Assembly: GCA_028288965.1 (NCBI GenBank) | Contig: JAQGHD010000028.1 | Location: 1-39,060, forward strand | Length of the DNA stretch: 39,060 bases | DNA from: Candidatus Saccharimonadota bacterium | Lineage (GTDB): Bacteria; Patescibacteriota; Saccharimonadia; Saccharimonadales; JAQGHD01 | Direction of reading: 5' to 3' | In this document: positions 171 through 39,060 of the stretch, in pieces | How the letters are laid out: each line of letters begins with the position of its first letter | How positions within the stretch are numbered: position 1 is the stretch's first letter | Notes under the pieces: generated by a model | What the model was told of the DNA's origin: nothing | What the model saw: only the letters and a program-made list of their open reading frames with translations | Database searches by the model: none | Program-made: the position numbers and the translations under genes

Positions 171-181
171 GTACATACGCT

Positions 182-6209: not shown

Positions 6210-6235
6210 TTATTTTCCATTCATGATGAAATTAT

Positions 6236-9175: not shown

Positions 9176-9178
9176 AAG

Positions 9179-9754: not shown

Positions 9755-9793
9755 TTTTTAAACCTGCTCCTTTTACTTTTGATGCTTAACATG

Positions 9794-9865: not shown

Positions 9866-9867
9866 TA

Positions 9868-9898
9868 TTGATATATTATACGGTACCTGTCGTATAAT
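9868..9898 (+). promoter_or_regulatory. Promoter of 9905 gene; probably leaderless
   Basis: A perfect TATAAT at 9893-9898 is preceded by TTGATA at 9868-9873 with a 19-base spacer. The GTG start at 9905 is only six bases past the -10, exactly where transcription should begin, and there is no Shine-Dalgarno sequence. This suggests a leaderless mRNA beginning at the start codon. Confidence 0.5.
9875..9880 (-). promoter_or_regulatory. -10 element of minus-strand glycan operon
   Basis: TATAAT on the minus strand, about 120 bases before the methyltransferase start. No convincing -35 hexamer was found at the usual distance. The predicted transcript would begin near 9868, just before the inverted-repeat leader. 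Confidence 0.45.
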
Positions 9899-9904
9899 CA
9901 GAAC

Positions 9905-12644: not shown

Positions 12645-12663
12645 AGGAGTTAACTAGGTGTCT

Positions 12664-12669
12664 ATTATA
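12664..12669 (-). promoter_or_regulatory. -10 element of wzm-wzt
   Basis: TATAAT on the minus strand, ending 19 bases before the wzm ATG. The predicted leader is about 12 bases and has no good Shine-Dalgarno sequence. No clear -35 was seen. Confidence 0.45.
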
Positions 12670-12678
12670 GAGTAGTTG

Positions 12679-12684
12679 TATACT
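12679..12684 (+). promoter_or_regulatory. -10 element of second glycan operon; near-leaderless
   Basis: TATACT lies nine bases before ATG 12694 with no ribosome-binding site between. The arrangement TATACT-TTAATAAAC-ATG is almost the same as that before the VirB6-like gene (TATAGT-TTAATAAAA-ATG, minus strand, 37863-37880). Confidence 0.45.
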
Positions 12685-12693
12685 TTAATAAAC

Positions 12694-14793: not shown

Positions 14794-14807
14794 GCCCTTA
14801 TTTCTGA

Positions 14808-14813
14808 TATACT
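14808..14813 (+). promoter_or_regulatory. Possible internal -10 (TATACT) before 14825
   Basis: TATACT lies 11 bases before ATG 14825 in the 31-base gap after the GT4 gene. GAGGG follows at once and would serve as a ribosome-binding site only for read-through transcripts. An extra internal promoter is possible, but there is no good -35. Confidence 0.3.
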
Positions 14814-14824
14814 GAGGGCAATAC

Positions 14825-23590: not shown

Positions 23591-24673
23591 ATGATTACTG
23601 ATTTACGCCTGCAGCATTTTCGTTCGTATACGGATAGCTCATTTGAGCTGAGCCCGGGCGTAAATATCATAGTTGGGCCCAACGCCAGCGGCAAAACCAA
23701 CTTATTAGAGGCGGTGATGATGGTCGCTATCGGCAGGTCTTTTAGGGCCAGGGATGAAGAGCTCAAACAATTTGAGGCGGAGTGGGCCCGGCTCGATGCC
23801 CATACCATAACCGGTCAACGGAGCGTGCTGCTAGAAGAAAAAGTTTTAGGTGTTCAAAAGAGTTTTGTTATCGACGAGCAAAAACTCTCGCGGTTGACAC
23901 TTCATAAAACACTCCCCGTGGTATTGTTTGAGCCAAATCATCTTTTGTTGTTGCACGGCTCCCCGGAGCTACGACGAGCCTACCTAGATGATTTACTAGA
24001 GCAATTGATCACCGGCTACAAGCAAGTGCGTCGCCACTACCGGCGGGCCCTGTCGCAACGTAATGCCCTACTGAAGCTGGGTTACGCCCAGGCCAAACAC
24101 CAGTTATTTGCTTGGAACCTACGGCTTAGCGAACTAGGCGAGCAAGTCGTGCGCTACCGCCAGCAACTAGTAGACGACATAAACGTTGATATGGCTGCCA
24201 CCTATAGCGAACTGGCTGATAAAAAGACAGCTGTGGTTGGTCGATATCTGAGCGACGCTGCCGTGGAAAGTTACGGCAGCTATTTATTAAAGAAGTTGGA
24301 ATCACACAATGAGCTGGATTGTCAGCGCGGCTTTACAGCCTATGGCCCGCAGCGTGATGACTTGGAGTTACTCATTAACGACAAGCCAGCCAGCCAAGTA
24401 GCTTCACGCGGTGAGCTGCGTAGCCTGGTCTTAGCGCTTAAAATAATTGAACTGAAGCTCATGGAGCGTATTCATAACAAACCGCCGCTGCTGCTGCTTG
24501 ACGATGTCTTCAGTGAGCTCGATGGTGCCCGTCGCCGGGCGCTTACCGAGCATCTCAAAGACAATCAGACATTTATTACGACCACCGATGCTGATGTGGT
24601 CGTAAAAGGATTTACTAGCAAAGCGCTCATTATACCCCTAGAAGCGAGCTTGAACTCACAAAAGAAAGGCTAG
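23591..24673 (+). CDS. recF: DNA replication and repair protein RecF
   Basis: This 360-residue SMC-like ATPase helps load RecA at gaps. Walker A is GPNASGKT at 29-36. The ABC-type signature SRGELRSLVLALK and Walker B PPLLLLDDVFSELD lie near residues 275-310, followed by a TTTDAD-type sensor. The length is normal. It ends in the four bases CTAG (24670-24673), in which the stop codon interlocks with that of the convergent gene. No ribosome-binding site is visible in the 19-base gap after dnaN, so it probably depends on translational coupling or an atypical start. Confidence 0.96.
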   Translation: MITDLRLQHFRSYTDSSFELSPGVNIIVGPNASGKTNLLEAVMMVAIGRSFRARDEELKQFEAEWARLDAHTITGQRSVLLEEKVLGVQKSFVIDEQKLSRLTLHKTLPVVLFEPNHLLLLHGSPELRRAYLDDLLEQLITGYKQVRRHYRRALSQRNALLKLGYAQAKHQLFAWNLRLSELGEQVVRYRQQLVDDINVDMAATYSELADKKTAVVGRYLSDAAVESYGSYLLKKLESHNELDCQRGFTAYGPQRDDLELLINDKPASQVASRGELRSLVLALKIIELKLMERIHNKPPLLLLDDVFSELDGARRRALTEHLKDNQTFITTTDADVVVKGFTSKALIIPLEASLNSQKKG

Positions 24674-25269
24674 TGAATTCCTTCGGTGTAGTGATAATTT
24701 CGTAACTGAGCTGTTTGATACTTTATGGTGTAGTCGCTGGGGTTAAAGCCCCGGTCTTGAATCCATTGCAGGGCAATTTGTTGAGTTTGAGGACTGGACG
24801 AAGTAATGATAAGCACTGGGCCCGTACTGGCACCGTTACTTTGAACGGTGCTAGAAATTCGAAAGCGATCGCCGGAGCCCAAGTACGGCAATAGTGCTAA
24901 TAACTTGCCGCTGTCTGGCGAACTTGCGGCCGCCGCCAACTTTAAGTTCTGGCTAGTTTTGTGCCGAGCCTGCACGGCAACAGTAGTGCTAGTTTGATAG
25001 CCATTGTCGGTAGCTGAAACCGTGTAACTGCCTGGCTTGAGCCGCACCTTACCACTCCCGGCCCCAATAACTTTGGCGTTATGATCAGCCTGACTGACGC
25101 TCAAAGCCGCATTTTTATCCGATGAGCTGAGCGAAAGAACTCCAGTTGTTTGATACGTATAAAGCGACAAACCAATCTCATACAAGCAAACCAGCACCAC
25201 AAAAATAATGCCTAGGGATACAAAGCGTTTGGCCCGAGGGTTCAAGTAGATATCGGTTTGGGGATTCAT
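24670..25269 (-). CDS. Membrane-anchored protein with PEGA-like domain, T4SS operon end
   Basis: This 199-residue protein is of unknown function. A cytoplasmic N-terminus with PRAKR is followed by one transmembrane helix (about 16-38). Residues about 65-110 resemble a PEGA-type beta domain (RLKPGSYTVSATDNGYQTSTT). The C-terminal 60 residues form a small alpha/beta domain. It would sit outside the membrane. It is the last gene of the T4SS-like operon, and its start overlaps the stop of the 138-residue gene by four bases (ATGA). It may be an accessory envelope subunit in the place occupied by VirB8-like proteins in other systems, but the sequence shows no VirB8 signature. Confidence 0.65.
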   Translation of the reverse strand: MNPQTDIYLNPRAKRFVSLGIIFVVLVCLYEIGLSLYTYQTTGVLSLSSSDKNAALSVSQADHNAKVIGAGSGKVRLKPGSYTVSATDNGYQTSTTVAVQARHKTSQNLKLAAAASSPDSGKLLALLPYLGSGDRFRISSTVQSNGASTGPVLIITSSSPQTQQIALQWIQDRGFNPSDYTIKYQTAQLRNYHYTEGIH

Positions 25270-25682
25270 AAAATTAGTACCCCTTGGCTTTTTAGATACT
25301 GCACAACATCGGCGGGCACGCCCTGAGAGCTATCAATTGAGAATGACGTTCCGGGTCCCAGCACGGTGTGGTAGGTGGTACCAACTTTTTGCATAACCAG
25401 CGTGGCACTATTGTGATCCGAACCCGTTGACTCAACTTGTATCACCGCCCACTCCTGATTGTCCAGATAATGAATGACTTTGATACTGTAATCTTTGCCA
25501 ACCTGGGGCTGCGAGACGCTTTTTGGTGCAGTGGCTAAACTTTGAGAAATAGCACCGGTTAACGGCGGTGCTGATTTGAGGGTTACGACTGGCGAGCTGC
25601 CAATAATTAAAACTCGGGCAACTATCGCTACAATGATCAACAAGCCCAAGCCAATAAATGTGGTTGTTATTTTTCTATTCAT
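25266..25682 (-). CDS. Small signal-anchored protein, T4SS operon
   Basis: This 138-residue protein is not recognised. A short basic start (MNRK) leads to one transmembrane helix (about 7-27) and an extracytoplasmic domain of mixed beta structure with the run YLDNQEWAVIQVES. The hydrophobic C-terminus ends YLKSQGVLIL. It is translated two bases after the wall hydrolase stop (TAACCATG) and overlaps the next gene. The two small anchored proteins share a topology and operon position, so they may form a pair. No homology is claimed. Confidence 0.65.
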   Translation of the reverse strand: MNRKITTTFIGLGLLIIVAIVARVLIIGSSPVVTLKSAPPLTGAISQSLATAPKSVSQPQVGKDYSIKVIHYLDNQEWAVIQVESTGSDHNSATLVMQKVGTTYHTVLGPGTSFSIDSSQGVPADVVQYLKSQGVLIL

Positions 25683-25684
25683 GG

Positions 25685-27067
25685 TTAGTTACCACTGCTT
25701 CCTGGACCAGTCCAGCGCCAAGCGCCACCCGACCAATTATTCAGCGATGAAGTCACAATACCAGTTTTGGTGCCGGTATGATGCGAGCCAAAGGTTACAA
25801 TCGAGTCGCCACTGACATGATCAACAATCTCAACGTGCTCGGGTGTGGTGACAATATCACCACCCTGGGCCTGGGCAATGGGAATTGATTGCCAGAACTC
25901 ACCTCCTGCGCCGTTCATGGTGGTGTGCACCACCCACATATAATTTAGACCAAAAGCCTTATCGACTGCCACGCTCACCAGTCCACTACAGTCGGTGGCG
26001 CACGGGCCTTGATTGCCGGCGGCTGAAGTATCTTTGGCTCCAGTCGGGTCCGGACAACCGGCGATGAAGGCCGAGTAACCCTGGTGTCCACCAGCATACA
26101 GGTAATAAATTCCTTCGTATTTTCTAGCTTCGCAAAGTATTTTGGAGTCGCCAACGGCCGAAGCGCAATTTACACTACCCCCCGTTGCACAATTGGTCCC
26201 CGAGCTATTTCCTAGGCCGCCCGATGCCGTGCTACTACCGCCATTAAATTTGAGCGTCGTGGCATCGACGTAGTGCGTTTCACGCTCGCCTGGACCGATT
26301 TGCACGCTCGCTTGATGCGCATAGTCTTTGCGTGTTGTGTTAAGGTCACCAAGTAGTGAATTAATATAGTCGTTGTGGTTAAATTGCAAAACAGCGCCCG
26401 CATCATTAGGGTTAGGGCCCCAAGCCCACGCTAAGTTGCCCGGTGTCTCATCGTAATAAGCAATTTCGTGCAGGACTTGCTCGGCAGTGGAATCGGCTGT
26501 GGTAATAATAGTGCCGATACGGTTTTGGTTGGACCCGGTCATGACAATAGCATTGGCTTCTACGCCAGCATCAAATGACTTATAGGCTTGGACTCCACTG
26601 GCGCTCGTAGCGCCGTCGACTAAATCGGGGCGGCTGGTTAAACCACTGTTCCAAAGGTTAAAGGCGCCGGTATTGGTAAGGTTACCGCCCTCGGCATAGG
26701 CCCAGGCCACCATCGCCACCACATGCTCCTGGGTTACGGCCCTCTCTACCGGAATGTTCTTTTTGGTGGCCACATCCTTTAAAACCTCAATGATGTACTG
26801 CTCCATATAATATGGCGGCTGGGCCCCGCTATTCCAAGAACTGGCCGCCGGCGTCTTGATGCCGCCAGCGCCTCCAGCTGCCGTACTTCCGCAAACGCTG
26901 GAACTGGCGTCATAATTAAAGTAGTAGACGCCGCTATCGAGTGTGCGTTTTTGGTCAGGCGATATGGCCGCCACACTTTGGGTAAAAACCAAACAACAAG
27001 CCATGGCTAGCACGAATGAAGACCCGCACATCCGCTTCAAGTGGCGCAAGCGTCGCTGCATGTTCAT
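25685..27067 (-). CDS. Bifunctional wall hydrolase: lysozyme-like plus NlpC/P60 (CwlT-like)
   Basis: This 460-residue exported enzyme would open peptidoglycan for the secretion apparatus. Residues 1-34 form a signal peptide (SVAAIS boundary). Residues about 85-250 resemble a lysozyme-like domain with candidate catalytic Glu126 in AYAEGG. A Gly/Ser-rich linker (about 275-300) follows, then an NlpC/P60-type domain with catalytic Cys360 in TDCSGLV and His411 in TPEHVEIVDHV. This order matches CwlT-type enzymes of Gram-positive conjugative elements, the functional counterpart of VirB1. The start overlaps the stop of the upstream gene by four bases. Assignment of the first domain is weaker than that of the second. 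Confidence 0.82.
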   Translation of the reverse strand: MNMQRRLRHLKRMCGSSFVLAMACCLVFTQSVAAISPDQKRTLDSGVYYFNYDASSSVCGSTAAGGAGGIKTPAASSWNSGAQPPYYMEQYIIEVLKDVATKKNIPVERAVTQEHVVAMVAWAYAEGGNLTNTGAFNLWNSGLTSRPDLVDGATSASGVQAYKSFDAGVEANAIVMTGSNQNRIGTIITTADSTAEQVLHEIAYYDETPGNLAWAWGPNPNDAGAVLQFNHNDYINSLLGDLNTTRKDYAHQASVQIGPGERETHYVDATTLKFNGGSSTASGGLGNSSGTNCATGGSVNCASAVGDSKILCEARKYEGIYYLYAGGHQGYSAFIAGCPDPTGAKDTSAAGNQGPCATDCSGLVSVAVDKAFGLNYMWVVHTTMNGAGGEFWQSIPIAQAQGGDIVTTPEHVEIVDHVSGDSIVTFGSHHTGTKTGIVTSSLNNWSGGAWRWTGPGSSGN

Positions 27068-29628
27068 AAGTTTGCCCGAGCCCCGGCTATTAAGGCGCTA
27101 TAGAGTGAAAAGCTGTTACCGGCAGCTGTTGGTGTGCTCGATGCCGGACCACTACCACCCGGAAAATTAATCTGATTGCAAGAAGTGTCATCACCTTCGT
27201 AGCAAGCGGTCGATTCCATAATCTGAGAATCAAATATGTAGAACCGAACGCGCAGCCAATCGGGATCTGGATCCTGGCAGCTGCTCGGCAGGGTATAGTA
27301 TGGTTTGGAGTCACCGGCCGTAGTTACGTCATAGGTGTGATTAGCATCGGTACCCTTGGTGATAACAGCCCCAAAACAATCCTGAGCTTGCTTGATAAGT
27401 GTGGGGCCTTTTGGACCATCTAGTATCAGCGCTGCGCTGTTGGCGTTGTCGTACGGATTTTTCACGACATCGCTATTTAGTTCTTCTACGCTGAAGCCGA
27501 ACTTATCAAAGCCGTAATCATACTGGGCCGCGTCCAAAGCGTGTGCCTTACCGGCAATCAGTGCCGAGAACGCTTTAGGGATGGCACCAAACAAGTTTTT
27601 TAAACCAAATGAACTCTTAGCAAAACTAGCCACATTATCTTTAAGATTGGGATTTTGCTCATCGATAACACCAGAAACTAAGGAATGGCTGTCGTATGGA
27701 TTAAGCAAACGATCGGCAATGCTTTTGGAGGCTTGTTCTTGCTGTAATGAGGCTTGCTGGAACTTATTAAGTTCCGCCACCTCTGGCTTTGTTAATTTAC
27801 GTCCGCCACCGGTGATGGCCGATTCGTTAGAAGCCAACCGCGCCCCATAGTTTATATAGTTGCCAAAATCTGCACCCGCCACATTGATATCTATGGGATG
27901 TCCAGCTAGCCAGTGTGTCAAGCCGTCTATCAATATTGGTCCAGTGGCCACACTGAGGGCATAGCCCCCTAAGGCACTTAGCGGGCCGCCAAGTATCGCT
28001 AGGCCCATGGTTACTACTTGACCAAAAACACCATTAACCACGCCACATGCTGCGCCTAACCCCGGCACACTAGTAACGAACTGGGTCATCAGGTTTTTTT
28101 GATTATCTAGCTTAGCTTCATCGCGAACATCTGGGCCGGTTAAAGGCTTGCCTTGCTCAGCCTGGATACTGCGAGCATTGGCCCAGGAGCCTGTTTCGGC
28201 GCTATTAAGTTGCTTGGATAAGAACCCCAGTTGCTCAGGGTTCACATCTTTGCCACTCATAACCTGGTTGCCTACCGACACAGCGTCCATGCCCATGCGC
28301 ATCAACGGCATTACCACATGCAAATACTTGATTTCATCTATATGATCAACGATGCCTTTGGCCATACAGAGAATACCAATGGCCGCTGCGACACCCCCTA
28401 CTTTGCCGGTGAGCTTGCCGGCGGTGCTGGTTCTAAATTGCTGGAATGGCCCGGCGGGAGCAGCAGTACCGGTGTTGACAAGTTCCTCACCACCCAGTTG
28501 TGCTTCTTGGGCTGTTTGGGCGGCTACGCTAGCCCGGCTTTGAGCTTCGGGAGAGGGTTGTTGTGGCGTGCCATCGGGATTTGTGGCCCCACTCTCAGCC
28601 GTAGCAGTAACGGACTGCTCGCCGTTATCTATTTCTTGTTGTCGATTCTTATGCCAGTCGGCTAAGCGTTTATCAAGAGTTTCCAATAGTTTTTTATCGG
28701 CTTTTTTCATCGGATGCCAATCTATGCCCGCCCGTTTTCCCATAATTCGGGCCCGCATTACCGCACTCAACTTTGAGTACCCCGCATCTTCCAGCACCGC
28801 CGCAATCAACCCCTTGGACTTATAGTAACCTAGGCCTTCAGCGCTAACTTTAAACTGTGAAGCCTCGCCAGCCACAGGCGTAATGTTATTAATACTGACG
28901 TTATATTTCTCGGCTAAACCAGCCCGTATTTGCTCGGGTGATTTGCCCTTAAAATCAGCCAGCACACCAGTATCTTTTATGTTATTTACATCAAACACGT
29001 ACCCATCAAAAAAATTAAGCCGCTCGGTATAGGCGGACGTTATGCCGCTTTCGTTAAGTTTGGCTTCAATTTTGTTGGCGTAGGCGTTGCCTAGTTTATT
29101 TAAGCGGGTTCGTTGATCGCCACGATACTCAATATAGCGAGCCAACTTAACCATGCGATCATTGCCGGCATTCTCTTGTGAGGAAAAATGAAATTGTTGT
29201 AGCAATTTTGCTATGTGAATAAATTGGAGTGGGCCCGAAGTGTACGTCAGTACCCCAAAAACTACAGCAATGATTGTGCCAATAATGCCTCCACCAAATA
29301 GGCGTCGCCGGTTAAATACGCGCACGCCCATCCCAGAAGCGGCTTGCGCCATAAAGCCCTCTTTGTCATCCGATTGCTTGTCGGGCAATAAGTCGCTCTC
29401 GTCCTTGGCCGCCGAACTTGGCTTAGTGGTAGTAGGATCACCTTCGGCAGTGTTCAGCTTTTCAGGGCTGGCCGATGATTCATCAGATTTTGAGTCACCA
29501 TCATGAAAACGATTGGTGATCTCGTTAAACTTATCATCATAGTCCGATTGCGGAGTATCCTCAGTAAACAGCGGCCGCCGTTGCTGCTCGTCTTCTTCCT
29601 CAGGACGCGTTTTTGTATCGAGGCTCAA
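27064..29628 (-). CDS. Large membrane protein of T4SS-like operon, unknown
   Basis: This 854-residue protein is not recognised beyond its context. Residues 1-105 are acidic, polar and probably disordered in the cytoplasm. A helix at about 108-132 (FGGGIIGTIIAVVFGVLTY) crosses the membrane. Further hydrophobic segments lie near 405-425 and 520-575, with Gly/Ala-rich, pore-like composition. The C-terminal region is soluble and holds several Cys residues, including two seven apart (TACYEGDDTSC). The start is TTG, supported by GGAG seven bases upstream and a 24-base gap after virB4. It may be a channel or scaffold subunit lying outside the membrane at its C-terminus. Confidence 0.75.
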   Translation of the reverse strand: MSLDTKTRPEEEDEQQRRPLFTEDTPQSDYDDKFNEITNRFHDGDSKSDESSASPEKLNTAEGDPTTTKPSSAAKDESDLLPDKQSDDKEGFMAQAASGMGVRVFNRRRLFGGGIIGTIIAVVFGVLTYTSGPLQFIHIAKLLQQFHFSSQENAGNDRMVKLARYIEYRGDQRTRLNKLGNAYANKIEAKLNESGITSAYTERLNFFDGYVFDVNNIKDTGVLADFKGKSPEQIRAGLAEKYNVSINNITPVAGEASQFKVSAEGLGYYKSKGLIAAVLEDAGYSKLSAVMRARIMGKRAGIDWHPMKKADKKLLETLDKRLADWHKNRQQEIDNGEQSVTATAESGATNPDGTPQQPSPEAQSRASVAAQTAQEAQLGGEELVNTGTAAPAGPFQQFRTSTAGKLTGKVGGVAAAIGILCMAKGIVDHIDEIKYLHVVMPLMRMGMDAVSVGNQVMSGKDVNPEQLGFLSKQLNSAETGSWANARSIQAEQGKPLTGPDVRDEAKLDNQKNLMTQFVTSVPGLGAACGVVNGVFGQVVTMGLAILGGPLSALGGYALSVATGPILIDGLTHWLAGHPIDINVAGADFGNYINYGARLASNESAITGGGRKLTKPEVAELNKFQQASLQQEQASKSIADRLLNPYDSHSLVSGVIDEQNPNLKDNVASFAKSSFGLKNLFGAIPKAFSALIAGKAHALDAAQYDYGFDKFGFSVEELNSDVVKNPYDNANSAALILDGPKGPTLIKQAQDCFGAVITKGTDANHTYDVTTAGDSKPYYTLPSSCQDPDPDWLRVRFYIFDSQIMESTACYEGDDTSCNQINFPGGSGPASSTPTAAGNSFSLYSALIAGARANL

Positions 29629-29652
29629 TTATAACTCCAATAGATGTATCTA

Positions 29653-31575
29653 TTATACCCCAGGCATCAGACGGTTATTCAGATCAATGGTGCCTTGCGG
29701 CTGAGTGATCTCGCCTTGCTGCTCTATTTGCTGGACTTGTTCGGGGTTGGTGGTGATGAGGCCCGTTTCGGTGGGGCTGGCGGTTATCTGGATGTGGACG
29801 TGATTCTGTCCGGCAAAGAACAGTCCTTGGCCTACCGGGAACTGGCTGAGGCGTTTCTTTTCCTCGCTCGTCAATTTAAAAACATCGGACAGTACGTCAA
29901 CTGCTGAAGTCGATTGCTTGAGCAAGATTTGCATACTGGCGTTGGCCACAATGGCTCGGCCCATGCGGCTTCCCATAAAGTCTTCTACGTCTTGGGTAAT
30001 GGTGGTGATACCTAAGTTGTACTTACGGGCTCGCTTAGCCAAGGAGAATAAAAAGTTTGCCGAATCTTCGTAACGCATTAGCTGCCACGCTTCATCTACT
30101 ACCAAGATACGGCGTTTTTGATCGCCCTTGGTTTTATTCCAAATGTAGTTGAGCACAATGTACATAGCTACCGGGCGCAGCTCATCCTCTAGGTCGCGAA
30201 TGTTAAAGACCACCAACGGGTTATTGATATCAATATTAGACTGCTGCGAAAAGATACCGGCAAATGTACCAGTGGTGTACTTGCGCAAACGTTGCGCCAG
30301 CTGTGGGCCCGTTCCGCCCATGTGGAGCAGCGTGTCGTATAAATCATTAATAGTCGGCGGCACCGAACCGTGCGTCAGTGGGTCATTAGTGATGCCGGCC
30401 TTGGCATAAGTTTCAATTAAGGCGGCATCAAGGTCGGCTTCTTCTACCGGGGATAAAGCCGGCACCATGGCATTGCCGGCAGAGTTACTGAGCATTTGAA
30501 CTTGGGCACCGCCCATCATCAAACGGAGCAACCCATGCAAGGTGATTAAATTACTGCGCAGGGCGTTATCAGCTTCCTCGGCGTCAACCACGCGGGGCAG
30601 GTCAAACGGGTTAATGCGTGTGGCCGAACTAAGACTGAGCCGTACATAGGCACCGCCGACAGCATCACACATTCGCTGATATTCGTTCTCCGGATCAATT
30701 ACAAAAACTTCTGTGCCAAACATCAGGCTGCGCAGACATTCCAACTTAACAGTAAAAGATTTACCAGCACCAGACTTAGCAAAGACCACGGCATTGCCGT
30801 TTTCTAAACTAAAGCGATCAAAAATAACCAGCCCAGAGTTGTGCATATTTATGCCGTACAAAATTCCCGAATCCTGCGTCAAGTCCGCAGAAGTAAATGG
30901 AAAACTGGTGGATAGCGCCCCAGTGTTCATGTTGCGGCGAATTTGCAGCTGATCGACAAATTGCGGCACAGTACTGTTCAGGCCCTGTTCCTGCTGCGAG
31001 CTGGCCGGCTTAGAATAAACCAGTTGCTGCCCCAGCATAGATTCTACTTTGTGGGCCACAAATTCTAGTTCTTCCATGGAGCCACCATAAATGGTGAAGT
31101 ACAAACCAAAGCGGAAGAAGCGCTCCTCACCCACTTGCAACTTGTCGCGCATTTCTTCGGCGTCGAGTATGGCGGCCTGTTTGCCCGGATCGCGCACCCG
31201 GCCTTTTTCATTGTCGATCATAATGCCAGCTTCCAGCTGACCAACTTTTTTGCGTAAGTTTTCGAGCACAACTTGGCTCTCTACGGGATACACAAACATG
31301 CTCATATCCATGATTTCGTCTAGATTAATCATGCCACTGAGCCAGCCGGTGTAGATCTGTCGGGGGTAACCATAGACGTAGTAGGTGCGGGCAAAGCGAG
31401 TGCCGATCTGAAAGTGCGTACTCATAAATTCAATCGAACTGGGCGCAATAAAATCACGCAGCGCTGTTATGCCCTTTTGGAAGGCAGCGTTTACCTCTTG
31501 CTGCTCACGCACTTGCTGCGCTTGAGCCACAATTACCGGATCAACTTTTGGTTTCTTTTTGCCAAATACACCCAT
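29653..31575 (-). CDS. virB4: VirB4-type secretion ATPase
   Basis: This 640-residue cytoplasmic ATPase energises T4SS assembly or transport. The N-terminal region (about 40-230) is the VirB4 membrane-proximal domain, with FQIGTRFARTYYVYGYPRQ. The P-loop is AKSGAGKS at 266-273; its first residue is Ala where Gly is usual, but Lys272 and Ser273 are intact. FVIDPENEYQRM follows, typical of the VirB4/TraC family. Walker B ILVVDEAWQLM lies near residue 490. The final 40 residues are Gln-rich. The start is one base after the TraC-like gene stop (TAA-T-ATG), so the pair is tightly coupled and probably forms one ATPase complex. Confidence 0.93.
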   Translation of the reverse strand: MGVFGKKKPKVDPVIVAQAQQVREQQEVNAAFQKGITALRDFIAPSSIEFMSTHFQIGTRFARTYYVYGYPRQIYTGWLSGMINLDEIMDMSMFVYPVESQVVLENLRKKVGQLEAGIMIDNEKGRVRDPGKQAAILDAEEMRDKLQVGEERFFRFGLYFTIYGGSMEELEFVAHKVESMLGQQLVYSKPASSQQEQGLNSTVPQFVDQLQIRRNMNTGALSTSFPFTSADLTQDSGILYGINMHNSGLVIFDRFSLENGNAVVFAKSGAGKSFTVKLECLRSLMFGTEVFVIDPENEYQRMCDAVGGAYVRLSLSSATRINPFDLPRVVDAEEADNALRSNLITLHGLLRLMMGGAQVQMLSNSAGNAMVPALSPVEEADLDAALIETYAKAGITNDPLTHGSVPPTINDLYDTLLHMGGTGPQLAQRLRKYTTGTFAGIFSQQSNIDINNPLVVFNIRDLEDELRPVAMYIVLNYIWNKTKGDQKRRILVVDEAWQLMRYEDSANFLFSLAKRARKYNLGITTITQDVEDFMGSRMGRAIVANASMQILLKQSTSAVDVLSDVFKLTSEEKKRLSQFPVGQGLFFAGQNHVHIQITASPTETGLITTNPEQVQQIEQQGEITQPQGTIDLNNRLMPGV

Positions 31576-31576
31576 A

Positions 31577-32563
31577 TTACTTCATCTGCCTATCTAAATT
31601 AGGTTGGGGCGCGTTGCCGGTACCTTTGGAAATGACGGCTGCAGATAATTCATCAAAGTTTTTGAGTTCTTGCCGAGTAGCGGTATCGGGATTGTAAGTA
31701 TCGTAATACAGCTCAATAAGTTCTTGAGTATCAAGCGGCAAACCTTGCACACCAGACTGCATCAAGCCAGATAGCACGGCTTGGACGCGGTTGCGCAGTT
31801 CGGTCTTGGCCTTTTCTAGGTCGGCCTCGTTAATGGTGACGTGGTCCTGCTTGTTGTTAAACAGTCCAGCCACACCCTTAAACAAGCCCTTGCTAGCTTC
31901 GATTGGTTTTTGCAGGTCAATTGTTACCGGGAAATACGGAACCACAATGTAAAACTTCTTGTCCATAATGTTGGTCTGCAAAGATAAGTTATCAATAAAG
32001 CCAATATAATCCTCCATTAGCATGGCCAGCAGCATGTTGTCGTGCTCGGAACGGATTTTATCCAGGCGTTCAATGTAAGGCCGAAGGTCTACCTTTTGGC
32101 TTCTCACAAAAATTTGCACCGGAAAGTACAGCGAGTTGAGGAAACCCTGATAGCTGTATTCAACCGCTTCGCGCTCTTGCTGGCTCATCAGATCGAAGTT
32201 AATCGACTTGACCATAACTACCGAGCGAAAGGAGCCATCATTCATAATGGCAATGCCGTCGCGAATCTCGGCAATCTGCAAAGTGTTTTGAGTACTATTG
32301 GGATTAATTTTTGGCTGGATGGCCGGTGGCTGCGGGTTGCCAGTTGCGGCGGGTTGCGGCGGGTAGATGGCGTTTGGGGACGGGACGGGACTTGGCGGTG
32401 CGGTTGGAAAAGCAGTATTTGGTGCCATAGCTTGTAGCGGGGCAGCCGGAATTGGACTCGCTGCTGGCGAGGGCAAGACATTATCTGTTGTCATACCACT
32501 ACCATTAGGTGCGGCAGCAGAATTATTTTGAGCCGGTTGTTGGTTTGGCGTTTGAGGATTCAT
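31577..32563 (-). CDS. TraC-like domain protein preceding VirB4
   Basis: This is a 328-residue protein. The first 90 residues are Pro/Ala/Gln/Asn-rich and disordered. From about residue 95 a compact domain begins IAEIRDGIAIMNDGSFRSVV and continues with FNSLYFPVQIF-type strands, resembling the N-terminal domain of TraC/VirB4 proteins. It contains no P-loop. A gene of this type between PrgI and VirB4 is a common arrangement in CPR genomes. It is probably a structural partner that docks VirB4 at the membrane. It begins 49 bases after prgI. Confidence 0.8.
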   Translation of the reverse strand: MNPQTPNQQPAQNNSAAAPNGSGMTTDNVLPSPAASPIPAAPLQAMAPNTAFPTAPPSPVPSPNAIYPPQPAATGNPQPPAIQPKINPNSTQNTLQIAEIRDGIAIMNDGSFRSVVMVKSINFDLMSQQEREAVEYSYQGFLNSLYFPVQIFVRSQKVDLRPYIERLDKIRSEHDNMLLAMLMEDYIGFIDNLSLQTNIMDKKFYIVVPYFPVTIDLQKPIEASKGLFKGVAGLFNNKQDHVTINEADLEKAKTELRNRVQAVLSGLMQSGVQGLPLDTQELIELYYDTYNPDTATRQELKNFDELSAAVISKGTGNAPQPNLDRQMK

Positions 32564-32612
32564 TAATTTATACCCACCCTCTCTAATAAGAGGCTCACAA
32601 TCTTAACTGCAA

Positions 32613-33689
32613 TTAACGAAGCGGAATGACCACCTCGTTGCCATCACTCAGCTTAGTGTCGCCTTTGCGTTTGTGTGCCTGCCGAGCGATGGTTGCCACA
32701 TCAAGATCGTCGTTTGTAGCAAGGTTAAGTATAGCAGGATCAGCGGTGCCAAGGGAAGGTGTTTGACTGGTGTTATCTCCCTGTCCCAGTGGCTGGATAA
32801 TCTTCATGTGCGAATTCACTGGATCTGCCTGCGATTGTTGTCGGTGCAGGTCGTTAAGTAACCCTTGCTCGTCCGGCGTGGCCGTCCGATTGTTTGTGCT
32901 ACCCGCACTGCCGGGCAATACCGCCGCGGGGTCATTAAATGAGCTGTAGCCTTTTGGTGCCGCAGCGGACTGATTTTGGTGTAAAAACCAATAATCTGGC
33001 GTTGGTTCGGCGGGCTCATCGGGATTCTTGCCCCCTCGCTTCACTTTATTGATCAACGATTGTTTGTAGCTGCTACCATACTTACTCAGCATTTGGTTGA
33101 GGTGTTGGGCCACCGGACTAGTTTGAGCGTCTAGCATATCTTCATCGGCGCGGATATCTATCCCTGGAACTTGTTTGGGCAAAAGCAGGTCAAGGCCCAG
33201 CAACCTATCAGAGCTTTGAATCCCAGCCATCGGATTCTCTTGGGCGTATAAGTTTACATTAACGTTTTTAATGGCCCAGCCGCGGCTATCAATGGTATCA
33301 GCCAGCGCTCGCAAACGACTTTTAACTTCCATAGAGTCTAAGCCATTGGTCATCTGCTTGTCTATTTTTTTAGGCACAGTAATAGTAACGAGCTCCTGCA
33401 CGCCGCTTTGATTCCAGATTCGCCGCCGAGGCTTAAACATGAAACGCAGCTTGGCGAGTGCCCACACCTCGGTTGGTTGATCGCGGCTCCACGGCCACGC
33501 CAAAAATGTCGTAATCATGATAACCGGCACGGTAAAGAACAATAAGAATTTAATGCCCTTAGTCAACGCAATAAAAGATAAGTAAGCGCTGACAGCGGCA
33601 ATGCCAGCAAACACAAACTGCTTGAGCGTTAAAGGGCCGACAAATTTATCTTCAGCCTCAATGTCCTGAATTACCTTATACGTTGCCAT
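32613..33689 (-). CDS. PrgI-family (VirB3-like) membrane protein with long tail
   Basis: This is a 358-residue protein. Residues 1-110 match the PrgI family: an N-terminal strand (MATYKVIQDIEAEDKF), two close transmembrane helices at about 24-44 and 47-67, and the basic AKLRFMFKPRRRIW segment. PrgI/VirB3 proteins link the ATPase to the membrane channel. The remaining 250 residues are hydrophilic, partly disordered and cytoplasmic, which is long for the family. It lies upstream of the TraC-like and VirB4 genes. The minus-strand TATACT nine bases before the ATG suggests its own near-leaderless promoter. Confidence 0.85.
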   Translation of the reverse strand: MATYKVIQDIEAEDKFVGPLTLKQFVFAGIAAVSAYLSFIALTKGIKFLLFFTVPVIMITTFLAWPWSRDQPTEVWALAKLRFMFKPRRRIWNQSGVQELVTITVPKKIDKQMTNGLDSMEVKSRLRALADTIDSRGWAIKNVNVNLYAQENPMAGIQSSDRLLGLDLLLPKQVPGIDIRADEDMLDAQTSPVAQHLNQMLSKYGSSYKQSLINKVKRGGKNPDEPAEPTPDYWFLHQNQSAAAPKGYSSFNDPAAVLPGSAGSTNNRTATPDEQGLLNDLHRQQSQADPVNSHMKIIQPLGQGDNTSQTPSLGTADPAILNLATNDDLDVATIARQAHKRKGDTKLSDGNEVVIPLR

Positions 33690-33698
33690 TTACGCTTA

Positions 33699-33704
33699 AG
33701 TATA
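33699..33704 (-). promoter_or_regulatory. -10 element before prgI, near-leaderless
   Basis: TATACT on the minus strand ends nine bases before the prgI ATG. No ribosome-binding site occurs in the intervening TAAGCGTAA, and no clear -35 was found. The position suggests internal transcription of the ATPase part of the operon. Confidence 0.4.
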
Positions 33705-33737
33705 CCGGATGTGGCAACCAGGCTGAAGAACGACAGG

Positions 33738-34937
33738 TTATTTCTTCTTAGGAGATTTCGTCTGAGGAGCTCGGAGCGCTTCTAACTCACCCGTAGACTT
33801 ATCAACCAGGACTTGAACCCGGTCTTGGACCCAAAGCGGAACCTCGGTACCTTTTGCTAACTCGTCAGTCGGTAGGCCAAAATATTCTTCCAGGTGTTTG
33901 CGAACTATTGATTGCGCAACTGTAACATCGGCATCTGGTTGTTCTTGGCGAGCGGCGCCTAACTCGGCATCAATAGCTTTTTTTAATCGCAAGACACTAT
34001 TTAGATTAAGCCAGGCGTTTAACTGTGCCCGGCGTTCAACCTGCTTATTGTCCTGCTCATGGGGTGGAGCCTCAAGAGTTTCTTTAGGAGCCTCTTTGGT
34101 TGACTCAACTGGTTCTGTCTTGGAGTCGTCAGAATCGGTATCTTCAGTATCCTCTTCCTCGAGAGGATCTTCTGTCTCACCGGCGGCGTTGATTATATCT
34201 TGCTCGGTTAGTATGCCTGCTGCAGCCGAAGTCTCCACGCTCGTTTGATTAGAGAGTGGTGCGGGGATTTCGGGTACTACTTCTGTTGCCGCTACTGGAC
34301 CTTGGGTGCTCGCTAGTGTGTCGGTAATCCGCTGCTTTAACTGTGATTTTATCTCATTTTCTGGTGATGCCAAGCCCAACTTGGAGGCCAGCTGGTATAG
34401 CCGACGTGTGCGATAAAAGTCTACTAAGCCGTCAATGGCGGCTGTTCTTGATTCGAGCAAAGCGGTGTTGCCTTTTCGCTTAGCAACCACAGCATCCCCA
34501 GTGAAGACATCAATAGGCGGGAGGCGGTAGTGCAGGTCATCTTCAAAACGCTTCTCTAGTCTTTCTTTAATGTGAGCTTTCAAACCTCGACTTCGCTCGG
34601 CAAAACGGTGGAACCTGCCTTTAGGGCGGCTTTCACCGGTGTCTTCAGTAAGAGCGGCGCTACCTAGGGCGCCCACAAAAGTTTGATCAAGCTCATCAAT
34701 ATCCTCAATGGCCTCGGCTTCCGCCTTTTCGGCTTTTGTCGGCTTTTGTTCGACAGTATTTGTGGATTCGGTTAGTTCGGGCTCACCAGCAGGGCCAATA
34801 GCTTCCCAAGGATCCTGGCGCAACGCACCCTGGTACACCTGATCAGGTAATTGACCGCTATCTAGTGGTTCATGCACACCATGGACGGGCGGTAGTTCCA
34901 TAGGGGTGCTTTCTCTTTGCAAAGTTTCAGAGGACAT
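33738..34937 (-). CDS. Acidic cytoplasmic protein of T4SS-like operon, unknown
   Basis: This 399-residue protein has no signal peptide or transmembrane segment. It is strongly acidic and low-complexity in two regions (about 50-100, and 240-300 with runs such as EEEDTEDTDSDD). Two compact parts lie between and after these: about 105-215 with a basic start (RPKGRFHRFAERSRG), and 305-385, which is helical. It ends with a Lys-rich tail (SPKKK). It could be a substrate adaptor or cytoplasmic regulator of the apparatus. No family is recognised. The promoter directly before its ATG suggests a leaderless transcript. Confidence 0.7.
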   Translation of the reverse strand: MSSETLQRESTPMELPPVHGVHEPLDSGQLPDQVYQGALRQDPWEAIGPAGEPELTESTNTVEQKPTKAEKAEAEAIEDIDELDQTFVGALGSAALTEDTGESRPKGRFHRFAERSRGLKAHIKERLEKRFEDDLHYRLPPIDVFTGDAVVAKRKGNTALLESRTAAIDGLVDFYRTRRLYQLASKLGLASPENEIKSQLKQRITDTLASTQGPVAATEVVPEIPAPLSNQTSVETSAAAGILTEQDIINAAGETEDPLEEEDTEDTDSDDSKTEPVESTKEAPKETLEAPPHEQDNKQVERRAQLNAWLNLNSVLRLKKAIDAELGAARQEQPDADVTVAQSIVRKHLEEYFGLPTDELAKGTEVPLWVQDRVQVLVDKSTGELEALRAPQTKSPKKK

Positions 34938-34943
34938 ATCTAA

Positions 34944-34972
34944 ACATTAGCATAATGTAGCTAAATAGTCAA
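34944..34972 (-). promoter_or_regulatory. Promoter before 34937 gene; leaderless
   Basis: On the minus strand TTGACT (34972-34967), a 17-base spacer and TAATGT (34949-34944) make a good sigma-70-type promoter. The ATG at 34937 is six bases past the -10, so transcription should begin at the start codon. No ribosome-binding site is present. Confidence 0.55.
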
Positions 34973-35015
34973 TTAAGTTTCAAAGCACCCACAAAGGAAA
35001 TCCAATAAGCCAGAC

Positions 35016-37865
35016 TTAACCTTGCTCAGGCGGCGGCGCGTCGCGCCCTCCTCCTCTGTCACGTTGGGTGTCATAAACCCGAGCTTTTTCTCTGACGGCC
35101 TCAGTCCCGGAAACTATGGCTATTTTTGGTACGCCAGACGATGGATCATATGGTGCGCCCGTGACTTCTGTGATGACCTGATCAGGTAAGCTTTGCATAG
35201 CCCGAGCAATTCTTTCTCGTTGTACATAAGCCTCGTCACGCACTGCACCAGATCCGCTTTGGGAAAGCTGAGGTTGTTCTGTATAAAACGTCGCAGCGGC
35301 TTCAGTGGCTACGGCACGAGTTGTTTTACCTCTTTGTTTTGCTTCGGCTCCGAAGTTGTCCTCATCTAGTTTCGTCATATTCCCAGAACCCACTCGCGAT
35401 ACGAGGCCCTCAAAGTAGTCTCCTGCGCCCGTAATATTACTCGGCTTTCCGTTGCCATGTTGGTAAAGTCCGACACTGGTCCAAGCGCGGTAACCATTGT
35501 AGACATCGCTGTCGGTGTTACCAGACAGATCGGGACGGCCGACTTGTTTGGCCTGGTACTGAAACTCGTTAACCATTTTTCTAAATACTGCATCATCACC
35601 ACCCGAAATATCTCGCATGGCACCCACCGCTTGGTTCCAGCCAGTCTCGCCTGGGCTCAACGCGTATCCGATCGTAGCAGCGTTCTCTATGCCCGCTCGT
35701 CTAGAAGCCGAGTTTCTGCCTATTTTATCAGCTGTAGCAGAAGCAACTAATAACTGCTGTCTTCGGGCATCCTTTTCGTCTTTTGTGGTTAGCCTCTTAA
35801 AGCTCCCGGTGCCGGCACTATAGTCTCGGTCGATTGCTGCCCGGGATGCGGCGCCCGAACCAAACATTGCCAAGTCCCCCATCACATCACTGTCGTCTTT
35901 GTTGGCCTCAAACATAAGCTGAGACGCACTGGATTGCCGCAAACTCTGTAAGGTGGCATCTTTTTGAGCAGTCATGGCTGCCCGCCTTCGGTTGCGTCCA
36001 TTCTTACCAAAGAGAAAGGCCGGGTTTACCGCGTTGCCCACATTCGCGCCAATTATGCCTTTCTCGGCATAACCAGTACGGGTCTTGAGGCGGACACGAT
36101 TGCGTAAACTGTTTGGGTCGTTGGCATTACCCTTAACAGCTTCGTGGCCTCTTTGCTTCCAGCCATCAAATAAGCCGTAAAGATTGCCGATGGCACCACC
36201 GGCTAACTTAAACGCAAATGGGATGAGAAACAGGGGCAGTAGTGGCAAAATTATGGAGGCAAAGTCTGCCAGCAAGTTACGCTGCGGCGAGTCGTTGTTG
36301 CCCAGTTGTATGGCAACTGCCGCCACGTTAGCCACGCCAAAAATGCTCGCCACAATGGGGTAGACCAACAGCGCCTTAAAGAAAAATTCCCACCACTTGC
36401 GAAAGTACTTCTCGGTATTTGGCAAGCAATACAGGGCAAAGGCCACCGGGCTTATGAGTACTAAGAATACAATCAGGCCCTGTCGGAGCAGCAAAGTTAT
36501 AAAAACACCAAGCATAGCCAAAAAAGCGGGTAGTAGCACAAACAGCAAGAAGAATTCGACCACAGCTCCAAGGTTGATTGCCACGGCCCATATTCCGGCA
36601 AGTGTTCCGGCAATTCCAAGTGTTCCGCTGGTGCCGCTAATAGAGAACTTGAGATTACCAGAGTCGGCCAAAGGAGCTGAAATCAGCGCCTCGATTCCTT
36701 TGCCGGCAACGTTTGTCAGATCTACCATCAGCGCCATAGCGTAATACGATATGTTTATCATAATTGCCGCCACTAATATTCGCGGCACCATCTTTTTGGC
36801 GGTATAGGCATCTATCAAACCGCCGCCTATTGCCTGGCCGAATACGGCAACCAATAGCGCGACTATTAGAACAACATTAGCAATGATACGGAAATTGGAC
36901 CATATTTGAAAAACTTTGTTGTTAGGATCAGAAGTATTGGTATCTACAGGTTGAACTTGCAGCATGGGCTGGATAAACCACTTGTACATATGGTCGGTGG
37001 CATCACCTAAGCCATTGATTAGGGCACAAAATATCCAAGACAACGCAAAACCGCTCGATTCACAAGTGGGCTTGGTGTCGCTGGGCGTGCTACTACCGCT
37101 GCTACCAAGGGTATCGGCCACCTTACCATCGACAGTAGTTGTTTTTCCAGCCGCCACCGTAATCACTTCTGAATAAGCGTGGTTAAAAGAATCGGCCGCG
37201 TTAGTGCTAACGGGCGTGTAATTGGCCGTTATGGTGTACTTGCCAGCCGGCACATTATTTATGGTGTGGAAATTACCGTTATCATCAAAATTTAAGTTAG
37301 CAAATGTGCTGCCATCCGAAGCCGTTAGTTTACCGTCGGCAGTGCTTTTAAAGGGCTGATTTTTTACAATGGCGTCAGAGTAGTGAACCGATCCTTTTAC
37401 GGTCCCAAATTGCCCGGCACTGGAGGCGCCGTTAACGGTCATATCGTAGTAATAGATATTGCCGTCGCTCTTATCGCAAAGATCTATGGGTTTAGAACCG
37501 GCGGTTTTCCCACCTATGGTAGCAACTACCAGTATTTGGTTGTATTCTTTGACGTTAGCCGATTTTGCACAACTACCGCCAGCGGGCTGGAGCGTGTCCG
37601 AGTAAAAAGCTTGGGCGCCACCCGATGGTTTTTTATACGAAAACTTAATAGCCTGCTGCTGACCATTAAAGAACCGAGAACCAGCTAGGTTGTACGAGCT
37701 TGGATTGTCTCCACCACCAAGGACTAGGCCAACAGCAATGCCATTTGAGCCTAAAGGTACGGGGCTAGGCGCGGCGTGTGCTTGATGGAGGGAGCCAAAT
37801 AAGGATATGAAGAGAGAGGACAAGAACAACAATACAAAACCAATGTTGAGGGCACGGTGTTTCAT
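35016..37865 (-). CDS. VirB6/TrbL-like channel protein with large ectodomain and tail
   Basis: This 949-residue membrane protein probably forms the inner-membrane channel. Residues 1-31 form a signal peptide (AHA-AP site). About residues 32-260 are an exported region including a carboxypeptidase-regulatory-like beta domain (VPAGKYTITANY). Roughly residues 270-575 hold six or seven transmembrane helices with the VirB6-type pattern (for example NVVLIVALLVAVFGQAIGGG and LLPAFLAMLGVFITLLLRQG). About 590-949 is a long hydrophilic, charged tail. I chose ATG 37865 rather than the longer start at 37886 because it opens the signal peptide and is nine bases from TATAGT. It is the first gene of the minus-strand operon and is divergent from the pilin genes. 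Confidence 0.85.
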   Translation of the reverse strand: MKHRALNIGFVLLFLSSLFISLFGSLHQAHAAPSPVPLGSNGIAVGLVLGGGDNPSSYNLAGSRFFNGQQQAIKFSYKKPSGGAQAFYSDTLQPAGGSCAKSANVKEYNQILVVATIGGKTAGSKPIDLCDKSDGNIYYYDMTVNGASSAGQFGTVKGSVHYSDAIVKNQPFKSTADGKLTASDGSTFANLNFDDNGNFHTINNVPAGKYTITANYTPVSTNAADSFNHAYSEVITVAAGKTTTVDGKVADTLGSSGSSTPSDTKPTCESSGFALSWIFCALINGLGDATDHMYKWFIQPMLQVQPVDTNTSDPNNKVFQIWSNFRIIANVVLIVALLVAVFGQAIGGGLIDAYTAKKMVPRILVAAIMINISYYAMALMVDLTNVAGKGIEALISAPLADSGNLKFSISGTSGTLGIAGTLAGIWAVAINLGAVVEFFLLFVLLPAFLAMLGVFITLLLRQGLIVFLVLISPVAFALYCLPNTEKYFRKWWEFFFKALLVYPIVASIFGVANVAAVAIQLGNNDSPQRNLLADFASIILPLLPLFLIPFAFKLAGGAIGNLYGLFDGWKQRGHEAVKGNANDPNSLRNRVRLKTRTGYAEKGIIGANVGNAVNPAFLFGKNGRNRRRAAMTAQKDATLQSLRQSSASQLMFEANKDDSDVMGDLAMFGSGAASRAAIDRDYSAGTGSFKRLTTKDEKDARRQQLLVASATADKIGRNSASRRAGIENAATIGYALSPGETGWNQAVGAMRDISGGDDAVFRKMVNEFQYQAKQVGRPDLSGNTDSDVYNGYRAWTSVGLYQHGNGKPSNITGAGDYFEGLVSRVGSGNMTKLDEDNFGAEAKQRGKTTRAVATEAAATFYTEQPQLSQSGSGAVRDEAYVQRERIARAMQSLPDQVITEVTGAPYDPSSGVPKIAIVSGTEAVREKARVYDTQRDRGGGRDAPPPEQG

Positions 37866-37874
37866 TTTTATTAA

Positions 37875-37913
37875 ACTATAGCACAATTATAAGTGTTACT
37901 GAACCGGAAACAA
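37875..37913 (-). promoter_or_regulatory. Promoter region of VirB6-like gene
   Basis: Two -10 candidates are seen on the minus strand. TATAGT (37880-37875) is nine bases before the ATG. TATAAT (37891-37886) has TTGTTT (37913-37908) 16 bases before it and would give a short leader. A small dyad, ACCGG-N7-CCGGT (37903-37919), overlaps the second -35 and could be an operator. Confidence 0.45.
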
Positions 37914-37975
37914 CCCGGTATCGCGGGGTCATAGATAGGCTGCTGGCTAGAAATATTGGCAATAACGTTGTAAAG

Positions 37976-37981
37976 TAAAAT
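37976..37981 (+). promoter_or_regulatory. -10 element of pilin genes; leaderless
   Basis: TAAAAT ends seven bases before ATG 37989, without a ribosome-binding site. The nearest -35-like element, TTGGCA (37956-37961), has a spacer of only 14 bases, so the promoter assignment is tentative. Confidence 0.4.
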
Positions 37982-37988
37982 TACGTAT

Positions 37989-38762
37989 ATGAACAAAATC
38001 AAAAAACTAAAAATGCTTTATCTTGCTGCGACGATTGTAGGCGCTGTGGGCATACTTTTCTTTGGCGTTCTGGCGCCCAAAGCCCAGGCAGCTGTCGATC
38101 CTAGCAAGAACTATATATATGGCAATAGTTTCAGCGATTGTAATGCCGCAGATTTTGTAACTACACCCGCCACGGCGCAGGCCAATAATTACCACTGCAT
38201 TCACTTCAGCACCGATACCTCTACCTACACTACCGGACCAACTGCTGGCCCTCATGGGGAGACCTGTGCACGCAGCCCGTATGCCGCAGAAGGCGGTTGG
38301 CAATATAACTCCAAGGCTTTTGGCATATTGTGCGCCTATTTCAAGCCCGGCACTACTGTAACGCAAGCTGGAATCTTGGACCTTGGTGCGGCCGAAGACG
38401 TTGGCAGCTTTGGGTTTAAAAAGGTAACTGGAAATGATACTTGTGGTAAGGGGCCAAGAACTCAAGAGGTAGCTATCAACATTGGCTGTCTGGGCGATAA
38501 GTACAAAGCAGGTGATGCCAACGCCACCCTTAACCCAATCACTGACGCGGCCTTTGCTATCATTCGATTTTTGTCGATCGGGGTCGGTATTGTATTGGTG
38601 GCGTCGATAGTTGTGGCTGGGATCCAGTACACAACGTCACAAGGCAATCCCCAAGCTACCGCCAACGCGCTTAAGCGAATTATGAGTGTCGGCAGTGCCT
38701 TAGCGCTATACCTGCTGTCCTACGCTTTGCTAAACTGGTTAGTGCCCGGAGGATTGTTCTAA
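37989..38762 (+). CDS. Secreted ectodomain fused to T4SS pilin-like domain
   Basis: This is a 257-residue protein. Residues 1-33 are a signal peptide (basic start, hydrophobic core, AQA-AV site). About residues 34-175 form an exported domain with at least six Cys residues, Tyr- and Gly-rich. Residues about 178-257 contain two hydrophobic helices around the motif TTSQGNPQA, the pattern of T4SS pilin (VirB2-like) proteins. The C-terminus ends NWLVPGGLF. It is divergent from the T4SS-like operon. The next gene's ATG follows its stop directly, so the two pilin-like proteins are made together. The additional ectodomain is unusual for VirB2 and suggests a tip or adhesive subunit. Confidence 0.82.
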   Translation: MNKIKKLKMLYLAATIVGAVGILFFGVLAPKAQAAVDPSKNYIYGNSFSDCNAADFVTTPATAQANNYHCIHFSTDTSTYTTGPTAGPHGETCARSPYAAEGGWQYNSKAFGILCAYFKPGTTVTQAGILDLGAAEDVGSFGFKKVTGNDTCGKGPRTQEVAINIGCLGDKYKAGDANATLNPITDAAFAIIRFLSIGVGIVLVASIVVAGIQYTTSQGNPQATANALKRIMSVGSALALYLLSYALLNWLVPGGLF

Positions 38763-39060
38763 ATGTTTGATGTATTCACTCAATTTGCAGCTTCATGTGC
38801 CAATAAAGGCTTCTTTGGTTTTCCAACTTGGTATAGGTACCTCGACGGTGTGACGACTACTAATAAAGCCGGAGTCACGGCCTGCACACCCGTACTAGAT
38901 TCTCTAAATAGTGTCTGGCTAATTGTGGCTGCAATAGTCGAAATGCTATTACAAATCGCGGCCATAGCTGCTGTGGCTTTTATTGTGGTTGGCGGTGTTC
39001 GCTACATTACCAGTCAGGGTGAGCCGGACAAAACCAAGCAAGCGCTCAGCACCATAATCA
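38763..39060 (+). CDS. T4SS pilin-like protein (partial, cut by window end)
   Basis: The reading frame starts at ATG 38763, directly after the TAA of the upstream gene, and is still open at the last base, giving 99 visible residues. Residues 1-45 are mildly polar with two Cys. Residues about 52-80 form a hydrophobic helix (VWLIVAAIVEMLLQIAAIAAVAFIVVG within it), followed by VRYITSQGEPDKTKQAL, the same SQGxP motif as in the preceding gene. A second helix is expected beyond the window. It is probably the major VirB2-like pilin. A signal peptide is not obvious at the start. Confidence 0.8.
   Translation, partial: MFDVFTQFAASCANKGFFGFPTWYRYLDGVTTTNKAGVTACTPVLDSLNSVWLIVAAIVEMLLQIAAIAAVAFIVVGGVRYITSQGEPDKTKQALSTII

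Follow-up and report, generated by a model that had tools for sequence, protein, structure and literature searches.

What does a type IV secretion system (T4SS) do when it is encoded beside the replication origin of a chromosome and lacks a relaxase? This question is raised by the T4SS locus at 24670–39060 of a contig from a Candidatus Saccharimonadota bacterium; the window analysed here is the whole of this contig (C13, 39,060 bp, ending at 39060), and the source genome comprises 0.92 Mb in 30 contigs and is 94% complete. The locus is not of an unknown kind but a further member of a T4SS already published from Saccharimonadia and other Patescibacteria, including its proximity to oriC and its essentiality (PMC12102498, PMC10633639). 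What seems to be new, on sequence comparison, is that the two genes following virB4 form a swappable wall-hydrolase cassette, which changes from lineage to lineage while the motor barely changes; we found no published account of hydrolase turnover in saccharibacterial T4SSs in the open-access literature. We consider it probable that the locus encodes a chromosomal, non-conjugative T4SS that forms a pilus or channel at the site of host contact, with hydrolases that open the peptidoglycan. This reading is built on the gene content, gene order and conservation of the locus, on the lack of a relaxase or coupling protein nearby and on the turnover of the hydrolases, all observed directly.

Components of the locus

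The locus consists of eleven open reading frames (ORFs), all located where they had been predicted, in two divergent units. Nine genes on the minus strand span 24670-37886 and, since the gaps between them are only -4 to +78 bp, are likely to form one operon, which lies tail to tail with dnaA-dnaN-recF. Two genes on the plus strand follow (37989-38762, and 38763 onward, the latter cut by the contig end). The features are listed below, with the neighbouring replication genes last.

24670..25269, minus strand: 199-aa protein with a single transmembrane (TM) anchor, a PEGA/CarboxypepD-like beta-sandwich and a C-terminal beta-beta-alpha-beta domain (GxxPxxYxIxY motif)
25266..25682, minus strand: 138-aa protein with a signal or TM sequence and a small extracytoplasmic domain; no family match
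25685..27067, minus strand: wall hydrolase in the VirB1/CwlT position, 460 aa, chimeric, with a lysozyme-like N-terminal half and an NlpC/P60-type C-terminal half
27064..29628, minus strand: 854-aa protein with a disordered N-terminus, a TM segment near residues 110-129, a large helical part and an invariant Cys784
29653..31575, minus strand: C-terminal part of the VirB4 ATPase, the N-terminal half being the separate TrsD gene (Pfam/NCBIfam)
31577..32563, minus strand: TrsD, the separate N-terminal half of VirB4, 328 aa (NCBIfam)
32613..33689, minus strand: PrgI (VirB3-like), with a long C-terminal extension (PF12666)
33738..34937, minus strand: 399-aa acidic, probably cytoplasmic protein
35016..37886, minus strand: extended VirB6-like polytopic membrane protein, 956 aa, with an N-terminal beta domain
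37989..38762, plus strand: VirB2-like T4SS pilin 1, 257 aa (PF18895)
38763..39060, plus strand: VirB2-like pilin 2, truncated where the contig stops (pilin search)
20860..22221, plus strand: dnaA, a neighbour conserved in relatives
22480..23571, plus strand: dnaN, also conserved in relatives
23591..24673, plus strand: recF, also conserved in relatives, whose stop shares 4 bp with the end of the T4SS operon

VirB4 matches NCBIfam NF045971 at 348 bits (cut-off 325) and Pfam P-loop_TraG at 99 bits, as the initial call would have it, and is 64-89% identical to saccharibacterial VirB4s; by the NF045971 match above cut-off together with this identity it is assigned to the MPF-FATA type. The adjacent 328-aa protein, originally described as TraC-like, is indeed related to VirB4, but the label has to be changed, as matches to TrsD NF041427 (4e-6) and to positions 2-103 of NF045971 (5e-6) identify it as TrsD, the N-terminal half of VirB4 encoded apart. 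PrgI was correctly recognised (PF12666, 43 bits against a cut-off of 27). In the case of the proposed VirB6-like channel, the topology, the position and 18 invariant columns in an alignment of 18 homologues agree with the call, but the window copy has no family match; 3 of the 18 homologues reach TrbL/VirB6, weakly (best E 0.005), and the VirB6 profile found no match among solved structures. It is plausible that this 956-aa protein is VirB6.

Both pilin-like proteins proved to be matched as T4SS pilins (PF18895, cut-off 26.6 bits), at 33.7 bits for pilin 1 and 30.7 bits for pilin 2. A pilin search of the genome located five further pilins where contig C22 begins (L045, bases 2-2076); beyond them come Hsp20, comF and chromosomal genes of an ordinary kind. 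Contigs C13 and C22 are probably adjacent, because in relatives an array of 6–9 pilins is unbroken; an overlap joining the two contigs was sought and none was found.

Position at the origin and the question of mobility

Among 84,980 species genomes scanned, 105 relatives were detected and 80 of them kept, mostly Candidatus Saccharibacteria/Saccharimonadia. Their genomes are mostly metagenome assemblies, these 80 loci and the 36 considered in the next section may partly share genomes, and fast-evolving proteins were assigned to families by position as well as by sequence. VirB4 is present in 53 of the 61 genomes of the order. The synteny of the recF-to-pilin block is kept on both sides: recF, dnaN or dnaA lies tail to tail with virB4 in 50/50 saccharibacterial loci having at least 9 kb downstream, and divergent pilins, most commonly six, are found in 46/48 loci with sufficient upstream sequence. 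Because of this distribution and these fixed flanks, we conclude that the locus is vertically kept, fixed chromosomal equipment. VirB4 identity exceeds DnaA identity in 34/34 and 46/46 loci, with a median of 12-14 points. The T4SS seems to be made of two separable gene blocks, since in L193 the block encoding VirB6, the 854-like protein, the hydrolase and proteins of 139 and 191 aa sits upstream of PrgI rather than downstream of VirB4, and in L174 and L192 virB4 has no VirB6/854-like/hydrolase block next to it, which places PrgI-TrsD-VirB4 directly on recF.

It is extremely improbable that the locus is a relic or active integrative and conjugative element (ICE) lying at oriC by chance, even though the window VirB4 falls in NF045971, a family named after conjugative elements, and some relatives hold a second VirB4 system (33-39% identical), in some cases with VirD4 and in one beside a serine recombinase. 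The position of the locus is fixed in all 50 loci and chromosomal genes lie on both sides. As the original prediction had it, the window contains no relaxase or VirD4; no VirD4-type coupling protein was detected there with Pfam and NCBIfam, and no member of the relaxase families PF03432, PF08751 and PF01076, the three searched, is present in the 94% complete genome. It had been suggested that a mobility gene just beyond 39060, or a patchy distribution in relatives, would speak for a mobile element; both were looked for, and C22 carries the pilins, Hsp20, comF and chromosomal genes, while VirB4 is widespread in the order and fixed in place. An integrase gene was noticed neither in the window nor over the first 12 kb of C22, att sites not being part of the search. 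A conjugative T4SS or ICE would be expected to show a relaxase, VirD4 with the system and a patchy distribution, none of which was found. A mobile element was thus rejected on the fixed synteny, the continuation of the pilin array on C22 and the lack of a relaxase, and the predicted chromosomal, non-mobile apparatus is supported. Two VirD4/TraG-like ATPases are encoded elsewhere in the genome, on contigs C27 and C1; coupling-protein homologues are common in the phylum and rarely near virB4 (PMC12102498).

A second, compact T4SS was observed in several relatives (L106:4779-9692 in G051, and also L107, L108, L109, L110 and L111), consisting of one pilin, a VirB6 of ~300-440 aa, PrgI, the TrsD half, a VirB4 sharing ~37-39% identity with that of the window, a CHAP/M23 hydrolase and sometimes VirD4. 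In G051 dnaA-dnaN-recF lies between two different T4SSs, the compact one being on the opposite side of dnaA. In the version found in G018 (L112:6718-19014) TrsD and VirB4 are fused into one 729-aa protein, and a VirD4-like ATPase, restriction-modification genes and a serine recombinase are nearby; unlike the system at oriC, this one looks mobile.

The order of genes at the origin is a yidC-like gene, rnpA, DnaA-box-like sites, dnaA, dnaN, recF, the nine minus-strand genes and the divergent pilin pair. Two DnaA-box-like sites, TTTTCCACA, occur just upstream of dnaA at 20695 (plus strand) and 20791 (minus strand), marking a probable oriC; the window-wide count of this pattern is not above chance, and it is the placing alone that is suggestive. 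Upstream of yidC-rnpA-dnaA (1-18413) lies a cluster of glycosyltransferase and O-antigen-type ABC export genes, with a GC content of ~0.40 (5 to 13 kb) as against ~0.49 elsewhere, which suggests that this surface polysaccharide locus has a different origin. Between the T4SS operon and recF of G020 lie two small genes, for proteins of 90 and 138 aa (L050:10775-11451), the latter PIN-domain-like by eye, which resemble an inserted toxin-antitoxin pair.

Wall hydrolases and other variable proteins

The 460-aa protein had been called a CwlT-like wall hydrolase. Its NlpC/P60 match is below threshold and the call does not stand on that profile, but it is upheld by the C-terminal half, which keeps the D-C-S-G and His motifs and is 51% identical over 159 columns (residues 301–460) to its best match, a G051-type gene. 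Residues 1–300 are instead most similar to a G017-type gene (36% over 325 columns), and neither type of gene has a comparable match to the other half, so that the window hydrolase is, as judged from these alignments, a visible chimera.

Positional equivalents of this gene were taken in 36 relatives and scanned singly, and a wall-hydrolase or esterase domain is present in 36/36. The domains comprise phage-type lysozyme, glucosaminidase, SLT, CHAP, NlpC, C39, M23, VanY/M15 and amidases 2 and 3, as well as GDSL, GH3, 3D, PlyCA/ELLD and beta-lactamase-like domains; by Pfam labels they form ~27 architectures among the 36 genomes, an approximate count in which halves with no detected domain are scored as unknown. 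In same-family or sister pairs whose VirB4s are 84–90% identical, the hydrolase architecture differs wherever both genes are sufficiently labelled, and it does so even for genomes of one family with VirB4s 86–89% identical; the two same-genus pairs each share one architecture. VirB1 homologues, 83 of which carry extra wall-related domains, have been described as rarely accompanying virB4 in the majority of classes, although hydrolases are noted downstream of virB4 in Southlakia epibionticum (PMC12102498). Every saccharibacterial locus that we examined singly has, by position, a hydrolase gene in the VirB1 place, and VirB1 profiles probably miss these proteins because their domains keep changing. 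An unusual pairing is seen in G021 (L102:9842-12097), where the hydrolase gene joins an initial beta-lactamase-like domain to CHAP.

The 854-aa protein also varies. An extra, enzyme-sized C-terminal tail of 133–511 residues, missing from the window copy, is present in 25 of 38 relatives, and in many, though not all, of these it matches VanY, M23, M14, GDSL or exonuclease/phosphatase. The core is of low identity, 24–35% in the same pairs whose VirB4s are 84–90% identical. A model of its fold (pLDDT 69, pTM 0.58; no match in the PDB or a viral library) could not be interpreted. Structure prediction had been proposed for the proteins of no recognised family, and the two models made, of the 199- and 854-aa proteins, gave no recognisable fold. 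A VirB8 hidden in the 199-aa protein was considered and rejected, as its AlphaFold model (pLDDT 75) consists of the TM segment, beta-sandwich and beta-beta-alpha-beta domain, for which Foldseek returned nothing below E 0.02; the gene is the last before recF in relatives, and its middle part is variable. Some relatives have a gene similar in size to that for the 138-aa protein (L193, for example, with 139 aa), and the 399-aa protein has no relative by tblastn in the loci examined.

This turnover bears on whether the hydrolases and 854-aa proteins are themselves T4SS substrates, delivered into or onto the host, rather than helpers of assembly. We regard such effector export as somewhat unlikely. 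It would fit the rapid divergence and the swapping of C-terminal domains on conserved N-terminal parts, putative effector genes are marked by the authors in the T4SS region of TM7x (PMC10768705), and protein export by a Gram-positive T4SS has a precedent in the 89K system of Streptococcus suis (PMC12857230). The hydrolase genes, however, carry N-terminal signal or TM sequences, which would permit exit by Sec, and many hydrolases combine domains typical of VirB1-like helpers. We tentatively propose, with rather less than even confidence, that the genes following virB4 make up a host-range cassette, fitting the T4SS of each saccharibacterium to the wall that its host presents, rather like the exchange of tail lysins in phages. 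The conserved entry parts would be the N-terminal signal or anchor with a YYDP...C motif and the 854-aa scaffold, and the swapped set would be the lysozyme, glucosaminidase, SLT, CHAP/NlpC, M23, VanY, M14, amidase, GDSL esterase and GH3 domains.

Probable role at the host and comparison with known systems

In the non-conjugative system that we favour, VirB4 (TrsD plus the ATPase half), anchored by PrgI (VirB3), would drive a VirB6-like channel and a VirB2-like pilus located where the cell touches its bacterial host, and the secreted hydrolases encoded beside virB4 would open the peptidoglycan for its passage. The host-facing parts (hydrolases, 854-aa protein and probably the pilins) would diverge fast and recombine under changing selection, with the motor held nearly constant under strong constraint. 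We infer that a pilus is assembled, that the hydrolases act on the wall of the host and that the cargo is protein or nutrients, not DNA. Essentiality for epibiotic growth was established for the homologous locus of a relative of the source organism, S. epibionticum, in which SEML1_0006-0019, pilins included, are essential for growth on the host by Tn-seq (2023; PMC10633639).

Several points weigh against this reading. A 2024 review considers the role of the saccharibacterial T4SS completely unknown (PMC11665869), and a pilus, a channel and any substrate have yet to be observed. The VirB6 call is weak, resting on topology, position and the invariant columns, and no VirB8 equivalent was found, the 199- and 854-aa models having no match among solved structures. 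With the ATPases on C27 and C1 present, the system may transport DNA by means of an unusual relaxase, and the hydrolases could act solely on the wall of the epibiont itself.

Import of host DNA or nucleotides, as by Helicobacter pylori ComB, has been proposed since the competence machinery is dispensable and the T4SS essential in S. epibionticum (PMC11665869). An importer would also lack a relaxase or coupling protein beside virB4, and one 854-aa homologue (G006) is fused to an exonuclease/phosphatase-like domain. We nevertheless judge uptake unlikely: the nuclease-like domain occurs in 1/39 homologues and is weak (E 5e-4), and no DNA-binding or uptake protein (ComB-like VirB8/9/10) was found in the locus by Pfam/NCBIfam. 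Both uptake and effector export are compatible with the non-conjugative T4SS at the host contact, because that explanation leaves the cargo open.

Reviews regard the saccharibacterial T4SS as established, with its function unexplained (including PMC11665869). No T4SS before it had been shown to be indispensable to the organism carrying it. If the exchanged hydrolases do determine whose wall can be breached, the host range of mostly uncultured epibionts would be predictable from one locus, and this prediction could be tested in the existing S. epibionticum/Actinomyces israelii system.

Among known systems, the diderm T4SS core (VirB7/9/10) is not recognisable here, VirB8, VirB9 and VirB10 having no Pfam/NCBIfam match among the window proteins. 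Gram-positive conjugation systems (pCF10 Prg, pGO1 Trs and CD1110-type) share PrgI, VirB4 (NF045971), TrsD and a VirB1-like two-domain hydrolase with the window, which differs from them in having no relaxase, nearby coupling protein or recognisable VirB8 and in possessing a pilin array. The tail-knob enzyme gp13 of phage phi29 has the same domain set, a lysozyme and a LytM endopeptidase, and is matched by the hydrolase-family profile over nearly its full length (4.5e-13); it is part of a virion, whereas the window hydrolase is encoded in a T4SS operon, and the likeness is limited to the domain set. The closest counterpart is the T4SS of Saccharimonadia and Patescibacteria (S. epibionticum, TM7x), described in 2025 as a VirB4 clade within MPF-FATA with TrsD, PrgI, VirB6 and VirB2 arrays, relaxase-less and near dnaA (PMC12102498). 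The window has the same VirB4, TrsD, PrgI/VirB3 and VirB2-like pilin array near virB4, together with a plausible VirB6, likewise on the chromosome near dnaA, as in several classes, with no relaxase and with the coupling protein away from virB4. It differs in the hydrolase present at every saccharibacterial locus examined singly, VirB1 being seldom by virB4 in most classes. In S. epibionticum, from whose locus that of the window shows no fundamental difference, the genes for peptidase and lysozyme that directly follow virB4 are reported to be essential.

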